Source of the DNA: Akkermansia muciniphila
GTDB taxonomy: Bacteria > Verrucomicrobiota > Verrucomicrobiia > Verrucomicrobiales > Akkermansiaceae
Length of the DNA: 64,000 nt
Assembly (NCBI GenBank): GCA_945874895.1
Contig: CAMCIC010000009.1
Coordinates: 57,084-121,083, forward strand
Reading direction: 5' to 3'
Made by a program: the position numbers and the translations under genes. Positions 57,207-64,000 of the stretch are shown piece after piece; positions within the stretch are counted from its first letter, which is position 1, and every line of letters begins with the position of its first letter. Under the pieces are notes generated by a model. That model saw only the letters and a program-made list of their open reading frames with translations, had not been told where the DNA came from and ran no database searches.

Positions 57207-57357
57207 ACGAGACGCGATTATGGTTCGATTTGAATGCAATCTGCAGATTTCAGGAGGGAGCAGAAAAAATCCTATTGGTTCAGTAAAAAATGCGGTTGAG
57301 TCAAAAAATTCGGGTCTTTTTCCTTGAGCGCGTAACTGGTTCAGTCACGATGCTTAA

Positions 57358-57585
57358 GTGAATGCGATTGATTCGTTTACCCATGCCTCCCGTGCTTTGT
57401 ATGCCTGGGTCATCTTCGGGATTCTGACCAGCTTCCTTGGCGCGGCAGATCCTGTGGTCTCGAATCTTTCCGCAGTGCAACGTGTGGGGACGAAGATGGT
57501 AGATGTAGGAGATGAGGTAATAGCCACAAATTTTGAATCAAATACCGCTAATAGTAATTTTTGTCATCTACGTAACCAATTGTGA
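57358..57585 (+). pseudogene. Truncated head of an FGE-family surface protein
   Basis: A 75-codon frame from GTG 57358 encodes a signal-peptide-like start (YAWVIFGILTSFLGAADP) followed by VVSNLSAVQRVGTKMVDV. That last stretch matches the domain before each FGE-fold domain in the next gene (VITNITATQRSETKFVDIS and VITNLAAAQRSGTKLFDIT). After MVDV the similarity stops and a low-complexity tail (ATNFESNTANSNF) leads to TGA at 57583-57585. So the first quarter of a paralogue survives and the rest is lost. It lies 17 bases upstream of the large gene. Confidence 0.6.
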
Positions 57586-57602: not shown

Positions 57603-60600
57603 ATGAAAAAAACAATATTTGCATCATCAATTCTTATGCCAATCGTTTTTCTATTGGCATTCATGGTGGTCGCACACGGCGCAGACTCCGACTTCGACGG
57701 CTTGGATGATTCCGTGGAAACCAACACGGGTGTATATGTTTCGCCTTCGGACACGGGAACCGATCCTAACAATTCAGATACCGACAACGACCACTTGGAT
57801 GACGGCGCCGAAATATCCTTTGGAATGAGCCCTTTGATTACCGAAGAATTCCCTGAAATGGTCACAGCAAAAGAAATCATAGCGACGAGCACGGCCTTTT
57901 CAATTTCGATTTCAAAATACCCTAAAAACAAGCAATGGGCCGAATCTCGAAAAATAACAATGACACAAGGATCCAATATCTTTGAGCCAGCACCGGTATC
58001 ATCACTTTTTGACGGAACTCTAACAGGTCCGATTTTAGCAAGTCCTTACATTGTTTCATTCAAAAATTCAATCACAGAGTCTTTTAAAGGTGCTTACTTC
58101 GTTATAGATGGAGACAGAAGCTCGCGATCAATAAAAATAGAAACAAGAACAGACTCAGGACCTTGGGTTTTAACAGTTGACGTCACCGCATTCCCAACAA
58201 GATTGGATTCAAGCAAATTCGCATTATATAAAGTGACATTTCCAGAAACAACGGCCAACGAATTCAGAATCACATTCGGCACCTCAAACTCGCGGCTCAC
58301 AGGAGCTCAACCAAGGCCGGGAGAAATAATCATGGTTCCCTCAGTTCCGGCGTTCAAACTTAATCTGACAAATAACGACAACACCACCAGAGGAATAATC
58401 ACAAAAACCGGCACGTTGGCTAGTGGTGCAAATGCTGAGCTCACAGCAACTCCTCTACCAGGCTATCTTTTCGATTCATGGATGGGTGATGCATCTGGTT
58501 CTGACAACCCCACAGTGATATTGATGGATTCCGACAAAACTGTTGGAGCGAATTTTGTTGAAGATACCCGCGATCCTGACAATGACGGGCTGACGAATTA
58601 CCAGGAATTGGTGACCTATGGTTCCAATCCTGATCTCGCCGACACCGATGGAGATGGCATCAATGATGGTGCGGAAGTGACCCAGGGGCGCAGTCCTAAA
58701 GTGGCTGAACCTGTCATCACCAATATCACAGCGACCCAACGTTCGGAAACGAAGTTTGTGGATATCAGCTATGATCTTGCGTCCCTAACGCCAACGGTGA
58801 AGGTCACTCTGGAAATTTCCAGCGATGGAGGTCTCAATTACAATGTTCCTGTCACTTCAACTACGGGAGCTATTGGCAATGGTATCACAGTAGGAGTAGG
58901 CAAGACCATCGTCTGGAACGCAGGTGCTGATTGGGACAGCAATTTCAGCAACCAAATGCGTTTCCGATTGATAGCTGATGATTTGCAGGTTCCGGGGTTT
59001 TCCTTGATTCCTGCTGGTGACTTTGCGATGGGACGCACGAGCGGCGATACGGATCCCGATGCTCCGCCTGTGAATGTGACCGTGAGTCAATTTTACATGG
59101 GAAAATATGAGGTCACAAAAGCGGAATGGGATGAGGTTAGGGCGTGGGCCGTCAACAATGGTTACACCGACTTGGCACTAGGCAACGGGAAAGCCGACAA
59201 TCATCCGATACATTCGATCAGTTGGTGGGATGCTATCAAATGGTGCAATGCACGGAGTGAAAAGGAAGGGTTGACACCCTGTTATAAGGTAAGTGGAGCT
59301 GTGATGAAGACCGGCACTGTGGATCCTATAGTCAACTGGACAGCGAATGGTTATCGTCTTCCTAACGAAGCAGAGTGGGAAAAGGCCGCGCGTGGAGGAG
59401 TTAGTGGCAAACGATTCCCCTGGGGAACCGATACGATCAGTCATGCGAATGCCAATTTCAACAATATTAACGGTGAAATCTACCAAACAGGAACAACTGG
59501 TTATCATCCTAGCTACGAGACTGGCTCGACGCCCTTCACTTCACCTGTTGGGAGTTTTGCGGCAAATGGTTACAGTTTGCATGACATGGCAGGAAACGTG
59601 TGGGAATGGTGCTGGGATTGGTATGGTGCATCGACGTATGTGAACAACGCGTCGGATCCTCGTGGTGCTGCTTCGGACTCGAACCGAGTGCTCCGCGGCG
59701 CCGGCTGGAACAACTACGCGATCTACTGCCGCTCCGCGGAACGCGGCTACAACCCCCCGTCATACTCGGACTACAACGGCGGCTTCCGTTTGGCCCGCAG
59801 CAACAGCATGACACTTGGAGTCAGTAATTCTTCATCGGCTCAAAACACCACAGTCGACATACGGAACTTTTATCTATCGAAAACCACTACGACAAATGGT
59901 TCGATTTCAGGCACTGCTTCTCATCTCAGTGGTTCGTCCGCGACTGTCACAGCCACGCCTCAACCAGGCTATCTCTTCGGATCATGGACCGGTGATGCAT
60001 CTGGTTCTGCCAACCCCACGACTGTCTTGATGGACTCCGACAAAACAATGGGCGCCACATTCGTCGAAGACTCGCGTGATCCTGACAATGACGGATTGAC
60101 CAATTACCAAGAATTGGTGACCTATGGTACCAATCCTGACCTCGCCGATACCGACGGAGACGGAATCAACGACGGCGCTGAAGTGCAACAGGGCAGAAGT
60201 CCCTCAATAGCCGAGCCTGTAATCACGAATTTGGCAGCAGCACAGCGCTCAGGCACAAAGCTTTTTGATATTACCTATGACCTCGCGTCGACAACTCCTA
60301 CCGTCATCTCATTGGAGATTTCCAGCGATGGTGGGGCAACATACACAATTCCCGTGACATCAGCAACTGGTGCGATCGGCGCAGGTGTGGCTATTGGAAA
60401 TGGGAAATCGATAGTTTGGAATGCCGGTATTGATTGGGATGAAAAGTCTAGCGCCCAGATGCGTTTTCGATTGATTGCTGACAATCAGATCATCGACGGG
60501 CTATATCTGATTCAAGGCGGTGCGTTTACTATGGGTCGCACCAGTGGTGATATTTTACCTCAGGGACTTTTTGACGATATTCCTCCACCCGTCACCGTGA

Positions 60601-63600
60601 ATGTAAGCCGATTTTACATGGGCAGTTATGAGGTAACGAAAGCGCTCTGGGATGATGTTCGCACATGGGCTGTGGCGAATGGCTACACGGATCTAGCAAT
60701 AGGAGGCGGCAAAGCGACGAACCACCCTGTGCAGGAGGTGAGTTGGTGGGATGTGATCAAGTGGTGCAATGCGCGGAGCGAAAAGGAAGGACTGACACCT
60801 TGTTACAGGGTGAGTGGCGCGGTGATGAAAACCGGCACCACGGATCCGACTGTAAATTGGAGAGCGAATGGCTACCGTCTTCCCTCGGAGGCAGAGTGGG
60901 AGAAATCTGCTCGCGGAGGAGTGATAGATAAAATTTTCCCATGGGGCACGGATACAATCAGCCACAGCCAGGCAAATTACTATGCTGCGCCTTGGAATTG
61001 GAGTTCTGATCTCAGCGGAACGGTGGATAGTCGCCACCCGACCTATGCTACGGGCTCAGAGCCCTTCACCTCGCCAGTGGGAGCGTTCGCGGCAAACGAC
61101 TACGGTTTGCATGACATGGCAGGGAATGTCAGGGAGTGGTGCTGGGACTGGTATGAAGGATCGACGTATATTGATGGAGCGACGGATCCACGGGGTGCTG
61201 CTTCGGGCGCGTATCGGGTGTTCCGGGGAGGCGGTTGGGATTACTATGCGTTCGATTGCCGCGCCGCGAGCCGCGGCTACAACGACCCGACGTTTCTGTA
61301 TTACGGCATCGGTTTCCGAATTGCTCGTTCAATTGACGCAGTATCTTCTATACTAGCATCTAGTGATATAACGCTTGATACTCGTAACTGGTCGATCGTT
61401 GTTGATACTGGTGATAAAGGCATTGTTGTTGGTTCTGGAACCTATCTTCGTGATACGAGTGCAACACTCACGGCAACTGCATTACCAGGCTATCTCTTTG
61501 GATCATGGAGTGGTGATACATCGGGTAGCGAGAATCCTACAACAGTGCTAATGGATACAAATAAAGCAGTCGGTGCGACTTTTGTGGAAGACACTAGCGA
61601 TCCAGATGGTGATGGCCTCACCAATTATCAGGAGTTCGTCGTCTACGGAACAAAATCAGATGTTGCTGATAGCGACGGAGATGGAGTCAATGACGGTGAC
61701 GAAGTAAAAAACACCACCAACCCTCTTAACGTTGATACTGATAATGATGGTCTCCATGATGGTGTTGAGACAAATACTGGGGTTTATATTTCATCATCGA
61801 ATACTGGAACCAATCCGACTTTGTCTGATAGTGACTACGATCTGATCCCGGACGCATTGGAAATTTATTTCGACAAAAATCCCTGTATTGCAGAAAGCTT
61901 TGATACGAGTCGTGCAACATTTGAGGAGTGGATTAGCACCAAAGAATTTCCCGATACTGAAGTATGGGAAAATAGTTATCACAATTTTTCTCAAAATGAA
62001 GATTATATAGGTAAATATGAATTAAAAATCAATTCGGGAGATAATGCTTACGATGGTCCTGTGACATCAATCTTTGATAGGTCGCACAATGGGTCAATTA
62101 TTGCACATCCTTACTCAATTGATTTTTCCCTAAATAAAGAAATATCAGTCAAGGGTTGTTATATCAGAAGCGATGGAGATAGGAGCACGGGGTCGATAAA
62201 ACTTGAATATAAGAATAGAAAAGGTAGATGGATTACCGCTTGTAATTTATCATTTCCGACAAGAGTGCCATTTCCAGGAATAGTGATTCATAAAATTTCG
62301 ATACCTGTGATTTACTCAAATAATTTTCGGGTCACTTTCGGAGCATCTAATTCAAGACTGGTCGGTGAAGAACCCCGCATTACTGAATTTATTTTGGTAG
62401 AAGGGGAAGATCCCAGCCTACTTGCTAAAGACACCGACGGCGACGGTTTGAGTGATTGGGAGGAAATAATCCACACAAAGACGAATCCGCTCCTCGCCGA
62501 TACGGATGGCGATGCGATCTCTGATGCTCTGGAAGACTTGGATAATGACGGGATTTCCAATCTGCGTGAGGTGACCGAACTCACGACTGATCCTCTTCGG
62601 GTAGACTCGGATAGCAATGGACTAAGCGACACTTATGAACTGGTCTACAAGGGAAGCGTGGCCGTATTCCAACCGCGCATCGGTGATCGCTTGCGCTTCG
62701 AGCTGCGCGAACTCGTTCCGCAGGGAACACTCCGATTGGCTGGAACTTTGCCCACGGGATTGACCTTCAACGCCCTTACGGGAGTGCTGGAAGGTAAACT
62801 CACGGGTAGAGTCGGCGCGGTCAACTTATCAATCCAAGTATTGAATGGCAGAACCGTAATGAGGACCATACCCTTTACCTTCAGCGTATCGCCGTTCCCC
62901 TCGGGCCTTATCGGAACGTGGCAGGTCTTGCTGGAAGATGCGAATGGCAACCCACAAGGACTCATCACCACTACCGTCAGCTCTCCCGGTGCTTGGAGTG
63001 CGCGGTATGACGCGATCGGAACCAAGACGATTCTTAGCACCAGAGGCGTCTTTGATCTCACGCCATCGGTGGATCGTGCTGCGTTCACTATCACCTTCCC
63101 CGTCGCTTCCCTTGCACCTGCTTTTTCCACTAGTTGGCAGATCGATGCCTCGACCGCCTTGGCCGGTGGAACCTACGCGCAAGGGACCATGCGCGGCTTC
63201 CGCTTGGCGAAAACGGGAGAGCTGCCCACGGCATCGCGTCAAGTCACGATGGTCATCGATCAGGGCGAACAGGACGGATACCAAGTCCCTGCGGGCTTGG
63301 GCTGGGCCACAGGCACCTTGAGCACATCGGGCAGCCTGCCCCTGAGTGGTCAACTGGGGGATGCTCAGACTTTCCGCAAGACAGTCAATCTGGGAGCCAC
63401 AGGACAAGCCATCCTGTGGATGAAGCCCTATCGCAACCTCAATTCGACGATAGGCGGCATCATCTCGCTGCGCGACACGGGCGTGGTGCCGCAAACATCC
63501 TACGCGCCCATCCAAAACGGCCTGCTATGGCAGCGTGTGGCGGATAGTGCGGAGTTGTCGTATGGCAGTGGTTTCGGTCCACTTGCCGCGGATGCCAGCA

Positions 63601-64000
63601 TCAATCCCTACCTTAAGCCGGCATCGGCGGTCGCGCTCGCCACGAATCTGGGACTCGCCAACAATCAGTTCCGCAACGTGACGTTCGATGGCGGTGGGCT
63701 CCCGAATGCCGAGCAAACCGCGGCCATGCCGGAACGATTCGTCATGGATTCCTCGTACAAATTGGCACCGGTGGCCTTGCCGGGTCGGGTTATGGCCCTG
63801 TGGCAAGGAGGGATCAGTGCCAGTGCGGGAACGTTCAAGGGGACCATCGCTCTCGATGCCAGCAATAGCGGGATTCTCAAGGGCAATGCCGGTGTGTCAG
63901 GTGTCGTCTTCCGCCGCAACGATCTCGAGAGCGTGGGGGCAGGCTTGATCAAAATCCCCACCACAGGCGTCAAAGGCAGCTTCCGCACCGGGGCGTTTCT
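57603..64000 (+). CDS. Giant secreted modular protein with two FGE/C-type-lectin-fold domains (3' end outside window)
   Basis: One frame runs from ATG 57603 past the window end, at least 2,132 residues. Order: signal peptide (cleavage AHGA-D near residue 27); thrombospondin type-3 (TSP3) acidic repeats; an unknown module (about 57990-58340); InlB-like B-repeat (58350-58565); TSP3; a linker domain; FGE-fold domain 1 (58998-59811, starting FSLIPAGDFAMGR, with GYRLPNEAEWEKAARGG and GNVWEWCWDW); InlB-like, TSP3, linker; FGE-fold domain 2 (60500-61330); InlB-like, TSP3, second copy of the unknown module (62064-62400), TSP3, a putative Ig-like domain (TLPTGLTFNALTGVLEG, about 62690-62850), then a beta-rich C-terminal module (GTWQVLLED, SGQLGD). 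Only one of the two FGE catalytic cysteines is kept (C in the CRSA/CRAA segments), so both domains probably bind ligand rather than make formylglycine. Confidence 0.8.
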   Translation, partial: MKKTIFASSILMPIVFLLAFMVVAHGADSDFDGLDDSVETNTGVYVSPSDTGTDPNNSDTDNDHLDDGAEISFGMSPLITEEFPEMVTAKEIIATSTAFSISISKYPKNKQWAESRKITMTQGSNIFEPAPVSSLFDGTLTGPILASPYIVSFKNSITESFKGAYFVIDGDRSSRSIKIETRTDSGPWVLTVDVTAFPTRLDSSKFALYKVTFPETTANEFRITFGTSNSRLTGAQPRPGEIIMVPSVPAFKLNLTNNDNTTRGIITKTGTLASGANAELTATPLPGYLFDSWMGDASGSDNPTVILMDSDKTVGANFVEDTRDPDNDGLTNYQELVTYGSNPDLADTDGDGINDGAEVTQGRSPKVAEPVITNITATQRSETKFVDISYDLASLTPTVKVTLEISSDGGLNYNVPVTSTTGAIGNGITVGVGKTIVWNAGADWDSNFSNQMRFRLIADDLQVPGFSLIPAGDFAMGRTSGDTDPDAPPVNVTVSQFYMGKYEVTKAEWDEVRAWAVNNGYTDLALGNGKADNHPIHSISWWDAIKWCNARSEKEGLTPCYKVSGAVMKTGTVDPIVNWTANGYRLPNEAEWEKAARGGVSGKRFPWGTDTISHANANFNNINGEIYQTGTTGYHPSYETGSTPFTSPVGSFAANGYSLHDMAGNVWEWCWDWYGASTYVNNASDPRGAASDSNRVLRGAGWNNYAIYCRSAERGYNPPSYSDYNGGFRLARSNSMTLGVSNSSSAQNTTVDIRNFYLSKTTTTNGSISGTASHLSGSSATVTATPQPGYLFGSWTGDASGSANPTTVLMDSDKTMGATFVEDSRDPDNDGLTNYQELVTYGTNPDLADTDGDGINDGAEVQQGRSPSIAEPVITNLAAAQRSGTKLFDITYDLASTTPTVISLEISSDGGATYTIPVTSATGAIGAGVAIGNGKSIVWNAGIDWDEKSSAQMRFRLIADNQIIDGLYLIQGGAFTMGRTSGDILPQGLFDDIPPPVTVNVSRFYMGSYEVTKALWDDVRTWAVANGYTDLAIGGGKATNHPVQEVSWWDVIKWCNARSEKEGLTPCYRVSGAVMKTGTTDPTVNWRANGYRLPSEAEWEKSARGGVIDKIFPWGTDTISHSQANYYAAPWNWSSDLSGTVDSRHPTYATGSEPFTSPVGAFAANDYGLHDMAGNVREWCWDWYEGSTYIDGATDPRGAASGAYRVFRGGGWDYYAFDCRAASRGYNDPTFLYYGIGFRIARSIDAVSSILASSDITLDTRNWSIVVDTGDKGIVVGSGTYLRDTSATLTATALPGYLFGSWSGDTSGSENPTTVLMDTNKAVGATFVEDTSDPDGDGLTNYQEFVVYGTKSDVADSDGDGVNDGDEVKNTTNPLNVDTDNDGLHDGVETNTGVYISSSNTGTNPTLSDSDYDLIPDALEIYFDKNPCIAESFDTSRATFEEWISTKEFPDTEVWENSYHNFSQNEDYIGKYELKINSGDNAYDGPVTSIFDRSHNGSIIAHPYSIDFSLNKEISVKGCYIRSDGDRSTGSIKLEYKNRKGRWITACNLSFPTRVPFPGIVIHKISIPVIYSNNFRVTFGASNSRLVGEEPRITEFILVEGEDPSLLAKDTDGDGLSDWEEIIHTKTNPLLADTDGDAISDALEDLDNDGISNLREVTELTTDPLRVDSDSNGLSDTYELVYKGSVAVFQPRIGDRLRFELRELVPQGTLRLAGTLPTGLTFNALTGVLEGKLTGRVGAVNLSIQVLNGRTVMRTIPFTFSVSPFPSGLIGTWQVLLEDANGNPQGLITTTVSSPGAWSARYDAIGTKTILSTRGVFDLTPSVDRAAFTITFPVASLAPAFSTSWQIDASTALAGGTYAQGTMRGFRLAKTGELPTASRQVTMVIDQGEQDGYQVPAGLGWATGTLSTSGSLPLSGQLGDAQTFRKTVNLGATGQAILWMKPYRNLNSTIGGIISLRDTGVVPQTSYAPIQNGLLWQRVADSAELSYGSGFGPLAADASINPYLKPASAVALATNLGLANNQFRNVTFDGGGLPNAEQTAAMPERFVMDSSYKLAPVALPGRVMALWQGGISASAGTFKGTIALDASNSGILKGNAGVSGVVFRRNDLESVGAGLIKIPTTGVKGSFRTGAF
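57990..58340 (+). repeat. Unknown module, copy 1 (within the giant gene)
   Basis: Encodes a stretch beginning SSLFDGTLTGPILASPY, with VIDGDRSSRSIKIE in the middle and FRITFGTSNSRLTG at the end. A second copy lies at 62064-62400. It resembles a small beta-sandwich carbohydrate-binding domain but I do not recognise a family. Confidence 0.6.
59709..59789 (+). other. Variable-region-like segment of FGE-fold domain 1
   Basis: 27 codons from after the Trp of GAGW to the Arg of GGFR. The stretch is 50 of 81 bases G+C, 24 of 27 codons end in C or G and 20 end in C, richer than the surrounding AT-leaning sequence. It matches the position of the ligand loop that varies in FGE-fold targets of diversity-generating retroelements. 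Confidence 0.45.
61239..61319 (+). other. Variable-region-like segment of FGE-fold domain 2
   Basis: The equivalent 27 codons in the second FGE-fold domain (after the Trp of GGGW to the Arg of IGFR). 13 of the 27 residues differ from domain 1, against 15 of 58 in the preceding block. Framework residues (C, R, A, R-G-Y-N, G-F-R) are kept. Confidence 0.45.
62064..62400 (+). repeat. Unknown module, copy 2 (within the giant gene)
   Basis: Encodes TSIFDRSHNGSIIAHPYSI, then SDGDRSTGSIKLEYKN and FRVTFGASNSRLVGEEPR. It lines up with copy 1 over its whole length (S-x-FD, PY-x-x-x-F, DGDRS, S-I-K-x-E, FPTR, FR-x-TFG-x-SNSRL). Each copy follows a related segment reading VETNTGVY, so a block of about 200 residues appears duplicated at both ends of the FGE-fold part. 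Confidence 0.6.

Follow-up and report, generated by a model that had tools for sequence, protein, structure and literature searches.

A 64,000-nucleotide stretch of an Akkermansia muciniphila assembly (GCA_945874895.1, contig CAMCIC010000009.1, here C9:57084-121083; hereafter the window) ends in a giant gene with two domains of the formylglycine-generating enzyme (FGE) family. The first of these domains, and more weakly the second, contains a block with the signature of a variable region of a diversity-generating retroelement (DGR). We propose, with a probability of about 0.9, that error-prone reverse transcription wrote the blocks from an adenine-rich template, which was not found in the assembly (2.92 Mb in 26 contigs, 97% complete). 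We class the window as a target written by a DGR rather than as a DGR itself.

The features concerned are as follows, all on the plus strand:

57603..63998, plus strand: giant open reading frame (ORF), 2132 codons up to the contig end
58989..59798, plus strand: FGE1, first FGE-sulfatase/C-type-lectin-fold domain (Pfam PF03781; structure model)
59673..59789, plus strand: variable-region block 1 (39 codons; GC content at third codon positions, GC3, 0.90), with the DGR-written signature
60504..61328, plus strand: FGE2, second FGE domain (Pfam PF03781)
61203..61319, plus strand: variable-region block 2, worn in appearance; 13/82 non-A sites differ from the template of a related DGR (G180), 10 of them at third positions

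The two FGE domains noted in a preliminary description of the window were recovered as PF03781 (FGE-sulfatase) matches in this ORF, together with three Flg_new_2 (InlB-like) and four TSP3_bac stretches; the protein is probably displayed at the cell surface. Contig C10 holds a second giant gene with two FGE domains, and contig C8 a stand-alone FGE gene of 508 residues (L195:3616-5139) with the block at its end. Below, C9F1 and C9F2 denote the first and second blocks of the window giant, C10F1 and C10F2 those of the C10 giant, and C8 the block of the stand-alone gene.

Codon positions of the differences

Between C9F1 and C10F1, differences at codon positions 1, 2 and 3 number 4, 3 and 25 over the 56 upstream codons, 14, 10 and 5 in the 39-codon block and 5, 5 and 16 over the 60 downstream codons (block versus upstream, Fisher 2.3e-6). 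C8 and C10F1, whose upstream sequences are by eye little alike, differ in the block at 17, 11 and 2 sites, respectively. As a control, we used 120 pairs among 16 low-signature FGE blocks, in which third positions account on average for 0.39 of the differences (sd 0.07, minimum 0.13), as against 0.17, 0.14 and 0.07 in the three fresh pairs of the own genome. Third bases of the block are thus shared in genes that have otherwise drifted, and the first- and second-base differences lie mostly at template adenines, which argues that the block was overwritten from one shared template, with changes aimed at adenines, once the genes had separated. Such a pattern is produced neither by selection on loops nor by simple gene conversion. 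Third bases and non-A sites are kept in diverged genes, as in DGR targets, for C9F1, C10F1 and C8, and weakly for C9F2.

The preliminary description had suspected a DGR origin from the two copies within the giant gene. Two other FGE genes and the templates of relatives support that origin for copy 1 and, to a lesser degree, for copy 2; the comparison of copy 1 with copy 2 was uninformative. C9F1 and C9F2 differ at 37 block bases, 14 of them third positions, and this share (0.38) equals that of the controls, so we rejected the difference between the two copies as proof by itself. An even spread of changes over the FGE domain, which that description had named as a contrary sign, was not seen: differences between paralogues sit in the block, on adenine sites.

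A related giant protein, P0011, was compared with the C10 giant at the protein level. In the first block 20/39 residues differ, with 2/39 before it and 5/39 after it; in the second domain the figures are 22/39 in the block, 17/39 before and 37/39 after (ungapped and probably out of register), and no clear picture emerges.

Fit to the templates of related DGRs

A search for RVT_1 in 57 genomes, the own genome included, gave matches in 26. Some of the enzymes with a GxxxSQ motif, which is typical of DGR reverse transcriptases, sit between copies of the block (for example, G043:C35). An alignment of four GxxxSQ enzymes, run on 260 family genomes, scored more than 200 bits in 15 of them, and the next best match reached 115. 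In 16 template/target repeat pairs beside DGR-type reverse transcriptases (12 of the 15 family loci and 4 loci outside the family), 301 of 349 mismatches fall on an adenine of the copy called template, a total in which that copy was chosen by script from its adenines, the very feature counted, in which the L186 pair is kept although scored on the wrong strand, and to which 4 pairs (L059, L067, L068 and L070) from loci used for building alignment A1 contribute. The complete DGRs of relatives comprise an FGE target, a GxxxSQ reverse transcriptase, a template and, where tested, an HRDC accessory, which has also been reported for the Treponema denticola DGR (PMC4891356; here and below, published papers are represented by excerpts).

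Among C9F1, C10F1 and C8 there are 44 variable columns, 30 of which lie on adenines of the G180 template (35 of 117 positions; Fisher 2.2e-12). Measured against this template, C10F1 has changed at 20/35 A and 7/82 non-A sites, C8 at 16/35 and 9/82, C9F1 at 17/35 and 13/82, and C9F2 at 22/35 and 13/82, while the control domain C10F2 has changed at 22/35 A and 34/82 non-A sites. The template of L099 (V1-33), again with 35 A and 82 non-A sites, gives 20 and 6 changes for C10F1, 17 and 11 for C9F1, 15 and 10 for C8, 23 and 12 for C9F2 and 22 and 34 for the control. The templates of L099, L171 and L263 agree with that of G180, the four blocks showing 6-13 non-A changes and the control 33-34. Against these templates, the differences are concentrated at adenines as in a DGR target.

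The G180 system (L176:3443-7285) has a near copy on an IMG/VR contig (L263, IMGVR_UViG_3300042402_007908): a DGR cassette of 3.84 kb, 94% identical and with sharp ends, whose accessory is an HRDC protein (PF00570). One copy lies on a cellular-looking contig and the other beside genes with weak matches to phage head and tail proteins. Given this 94% copy on a weakly phage-like contig, the cassette seems able to move.

Composition and fold of the blocks

Counts in the preliminary description proved exact on recounting: 13/27 residues differ between 59709-59789 and 61239-61319, as against 15/58 in the preceding stretch, and 20/27 codons of copy 1 end in C. In copy 2 the latter count is 15/27; the gene-wide share is 0.28, and 20 is the maximum for any 27 consecutive codons of the gene. 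GC3 reaches 0.90 over the 39 codons starting at 59673, which places this stretch fourth among 2094 codon windows (mean 0.50, sd 0.15). GC3 rises from 0.46 upstream to 0.90 in C9F1 (59673-59789), from 0.57 to 0.74 in C9F2 (61203-61319), from 0.50 to 0.95 in C10F1 and from 0.42 to 0.90 in C8, with no jump in C10F2 (C10:109067-109876; 0.45 upstream, 0.56 in the block). The own genome has 12 FGE matches, 6 of which were measured for GC3; the jump is present in four (C9F1, C9F2 weakly, C10F1 and C8) and absent from C10F2 and C24. We set the start of block 1 at 59673, 12 codons ahead of the start first described, because the rise in GC3 and the start of the repeat in a relative's DGR agree there.

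C10F2, which lies beside C10F1 in one protein and lacks the block signature, forms a natural within-protein control. A separate short contig (L100, C1_MAG_00061, 3523 bases) carries three FGE blocks with GC3 of 0.93-0.97, as against 0.66-0.67 upstream.

A structure model of FGE1 (mean pLDDT, the predicted local distance difference test, 88.3; 29-row alignment) has as its best PDB match by E-value TvpA, 2y3c (E 4.7e-20; template modelling score 0.72/0.70), followed by CarF and FGE. Of the 25 columns that vary most in the FGE1 alignment, 15 fall in the block; by analogy with TvpA, this stretch presumably lies on the ligand face. FGE1 thus has the C-type-lectin/FGE fold with a variable stretch that is found in DGR targets. 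The position of human FGE C336 is occupied by N, inside the block, and that of C341 by C (the aligned chain is a C336S mutant); both are residues that we take to be the active-site cysteines of the human enzyme. The catalytic cysteine reported earlier as missing is therefore one of two, and the domain does not have the pair that marks a formylglycine-generating enzyme.

Homing-site-like sequence and origin of the giant gene

The C8 gene ends in GCCCGCAGTTCAGTCCCCTAG, followed by ~90 non-coding bases. This 3' flank recurs in 22/260 family genomes, including 5/10 of the own genus (at most three candidates scored per genome); the search gave 35 rows, and in 28 of the 30 loci inspected an FGE block stands directly before the flank. 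The G180 template ends in GCCCGCAGCTCAGTCCCGGAG and its target in GCCCGCAGTTCAGTTCCCTAG, and the sequence 3' of the repeat is CGCAGCTCAGTCCCGGAG at the template versus CGCAGTTCAGTTCCCTAG at the target, a pair resembling the initiation of mutagenic homing sites IMH* and IMH (PMC3240598, PMC4891356). Its position and its differing version at the template point to an IMH role for the 3' sequence. The homing-site pattern is present on C8, G003, G006 and G180, so that C8 shares its block, a homing-site-like 3' sequence and a non-coding flank with the DGR targets of relatives. The DGR of Bordetella phage BPP-1 shares the adenine-aimed rewriting and needs a hairpin behind its target (PMC3240598); in three target flanks examined here the hairpin z-scores were 1.41, -0.32 and 0.34, none of them significant.

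Nine IMG/VR stretches (L343-L351) carry an 18-base homing-site word at the ends of FGE-like genes, with no reverse transcriptase seen in them. L345 and L349 differ at 22, 14 and 74 sites of codon positions 1, 2 and 3 over 308 upstream codons and at 19, 20 and 9 over the last 48.

In G003 and G006, both sister genomes, a short open frame (524 and 410 codons, respectively) forms the target and ends at the block and homing site. Behind it lies a separate coding sequence, divided into two ORFs in G003 but single in G006, which matches the giant at 50-67% over the InlB-like parts and at 80-83% over the C-terminal module. In the window, the target module occurs twice, in frame with the InlB-like and C-terminal part and with neither stop nor homing site. 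This sequence arrangement suggests an origin of the giant in which a DGR target module was doubled and fused to the gene that followed it, losing the stop and the homing site; joining appears to be the direction of change, rather than splitting.

Under the proposed reading, reverse transcriptase and template would come in trans from a DGR core that either is absent from the assembly or resides on a mobile element. A single round of homing could change ~15 codons, those with AAC in the template, on the C-type-lectin ligand face, and the giant protein would show this loop outside the cell on its InlB-like and TSP3 linkers.

Alternative explanations

Several results weigh against a DGR origin. 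The absence of a reverse transcriptase and template, which the preliminary description had noted for the window and, if it extended to the whole genome, had named as one half of a refutation, does extend to the assembly, and neither part of a complete DGR was found genome-wide. The own genome gave no match to RVT_1 and none to the DGR alignment at 1e-8; in a relaxed DGR-enzyme search the best match (E 0.037) was a piece of 43 residues that contains a stop. DNA searches of this genome with C9F1, C10F1 and the G180 template found no template repeat, although the G180-template search missed C9F1 itself, so a template could escape it. The exact 15-base template core word is present in 0/10 genus genomes, a weaker test for the other nine because the word derives from blocks of the own genome. 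A recognised DGR enzyme is likewise present in 0/10; five of the nine other genomes (G004, G005, G006, G008 and G009) have RVT_1 matches, and no GxxxSQ motif occurs in the stretches read of them. The homing-site pattern is absent from both strands of the window and from the C10 stretch read. Copy 2 alone is indistinguishable from ordinary divergence, a weak point on the same side, and block 2 looks like a worn copy. Finally, the L106 template fits worse (changes at 78 non-A sites: C10F1 16, C9F1 16, C8 19, C9F2 24, control 29) and shows an excess of changes at A in the control domain as well (p 1e-3).

As candidates for a DGR enzyme, we rejected the G004, G005, G008 and G009 matches, which have QG..SP motifs instead, and that of G006, with the motif GLPTGLSISS; three weaker G008 matches and one G005 match showed no GxxxSQ in the stretches read. 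With C9 or C10 joined to C21, the ORFs of at least 150 codons in the first 12 kb include no reverse transcriptase by eye, and phage and plasmid records searched with the G180 template gave no match. In genus g13, the enzyme matches above 200 bits in 6 of 16 genomes with the flank, which makes absence of the enzyme from a draft weak evidence, and the 0/5 among flank-bearing genomes of the own genus is a small sample.

The same absences could mean that the lineage has lost its DGR reverse transcriptase and template and that the blocks are recent relics. We regard this as possible but doubtful. Enzyme and template word are found in 0/10 genus genomes and blocks in 6/10 (5 by the template-DNA search, plus G006), each in an FGE gene, the G007 block being the least template-like in the genus (21/82 non-A sites changed); T. 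denticola isolates similarly carry targets without the core (PMC4891356). The 43-residue reverse-transcriptase-like piece (G000:C10:60929-61072, G000 being the own genome; L356; genome-level E 0.04; 41% to the G180 enzyme across 39 columns) could be a relic or perhaps chance. Against loss, C8 and C10F1 have different third bases in no more than 2 of their 39 codons, implying little drift since the last write; drafts often lack the core, as the g13 genomes show; and the assembly lacks one of the two continuations next to the giant genes. It is very improbable that no retroelement was involved, with FGE loops varying by ordinary selection and the high GC3 reflecting codon bias: FGE loops do vary in general, and C10F2 varies without the signature, but loop selection does not freeze third bases as in the three fresh pairs compared with the controls above, and the C8 block and non-coding flank are common to DGR targets of other species.

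The route by which the giants received their blocks is a further point. The DGR may write only short targets with a homing site, such as C8, with ordinary recombination copying blocks into the giants; we consider such a relay unlikely. It would account for the absence from the giant blocks of a stop and homing site, both retained in C8, G003 and G006, and for third-base differences that reappear within a few codons past the GFR residues behind the block, and in phage BPP-1 a homing site and hairpin are required (PMC3240598). However, searches found no block identical to a giant's block elsewhere in the assembly, C9F1, C10F1 and C8 differ mutually in many codons, and of 271 published DGRs with multiple variable repeats, 31 have several of them within a single ORF (PMC6642488). 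A two-step machine, in which an extrachromosomal DGR core on a phage-like or mobile element rewrites short homing-site targets and recombination passes the loops into internal domains of the giants that have no homing site, would resemble cassette-based antigenic variation. This proposal, which we hold to be quite unlikely, draws on three observations: the genus has targets with flanks (5/10) without a recognised core enzyme (0/10); the giant blocks are fresh yet without a homing site; and the 3.84-kb cassette occurs at 94% identity on both cellular-looking and weakly phage-like contigs.

Relation to known systems

The closest known system is the T. denticola DGR with TvpA (2y3c), which has the same FGE/C-type-lectin fold and whose HRDC accessory recurs in the cassette of relatives. 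TvpA is a small protein that ends at its variable region. In contrast, the domain in the window is doubled within a protein of more than 2100 residues, is followed by a long stretch of further sequence and lacks a homing site. The DGRs of relatives (G180, from the same family; L099/V1-33; L171/HRSG-H1-bin-188) share the block start and the FGE target, and C10F1 differs from their templates at 6-7 of 82 non-A sites; unlike those of the window, their targets stop at the block with a homing site and flank, beside the template and reverse transcriptase. Orphan targets without reverse transcriptase and template, as here, have been described in T. denticola isolates (PMC4891356). Cyanobacterial DGRs have remote variable proteins, with targets away from the core, as here (PMC7517822), but in those the core is in the genome and the matches lie near target 3' ends, whereas here the core was not found and the blocks are internal.

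Orphan targets (PMC4891356), remote targets (PMC7517822) and multiple variable repeats per ORF (PMC6642488) are thus already published. A limited search of the DGR literature, likewise in excerpts, gave no report of variable blocks inside giant joined proteins. What the window adds is DGR target modules joined in tandem in giant multi-domain proteins, with interior blocks and no homing site, which raises the question of whether a DGR can write without a homing site or whether recombination spreads its products. DGR-written genes can, moreover, be recognised from a block of frozen third bases, with neither enzyme nor template at hand; surveys based on the reverse transcriptase may therefore miss many targets, template DNA matches (templates and targets together) occurring in 47/260 family genomes versus enzyme matches above 200 bits in 15/260.

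Other features of the locus

Further features of the window, on the plus strand, are:

57317..57504, plus strand: stretch upstream of the giant gene, 72% identical in DNA to the start of the open frame of the G006 short target
62420..64000, plus strand: C-terminal module, a separate gene behind the short target in G003 and G006 (80-83% amino acid identity)
63852..64000, plus strand: 149-base repeat, exact at the ends of contigs C9, C10 and C21

Joined to contig C21, the giant ORF would gain 4 codons (LMDR, then a stop). The assembly contains two giant genes (C9 and C10) as against one continuation (C21), the second continuation being missing. On the reverse strand of C21, the first 3.8 kb behind the giant gene (L193) contain, by eye, an ORF resembling a transposase (MSHSLANVILHIVFSTKKRERS...) together with repeats that are similar to one another (such as RRKRFDEASRWDAG); these may represent a repeat family of the repetitive extragenic palindrome and associated transposase (REP/RAYT) type.

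One metagenome-assembled genome, LacPavin_0419_WC70L_MAG_62_22, accounts for 16 of the 79 kept loci (L102-L104, L106, L109, L111, L115-L120, L124, L127, L128 and L161); it has many FGE target-like genes, and its DGR-type enzyme lies on L106.

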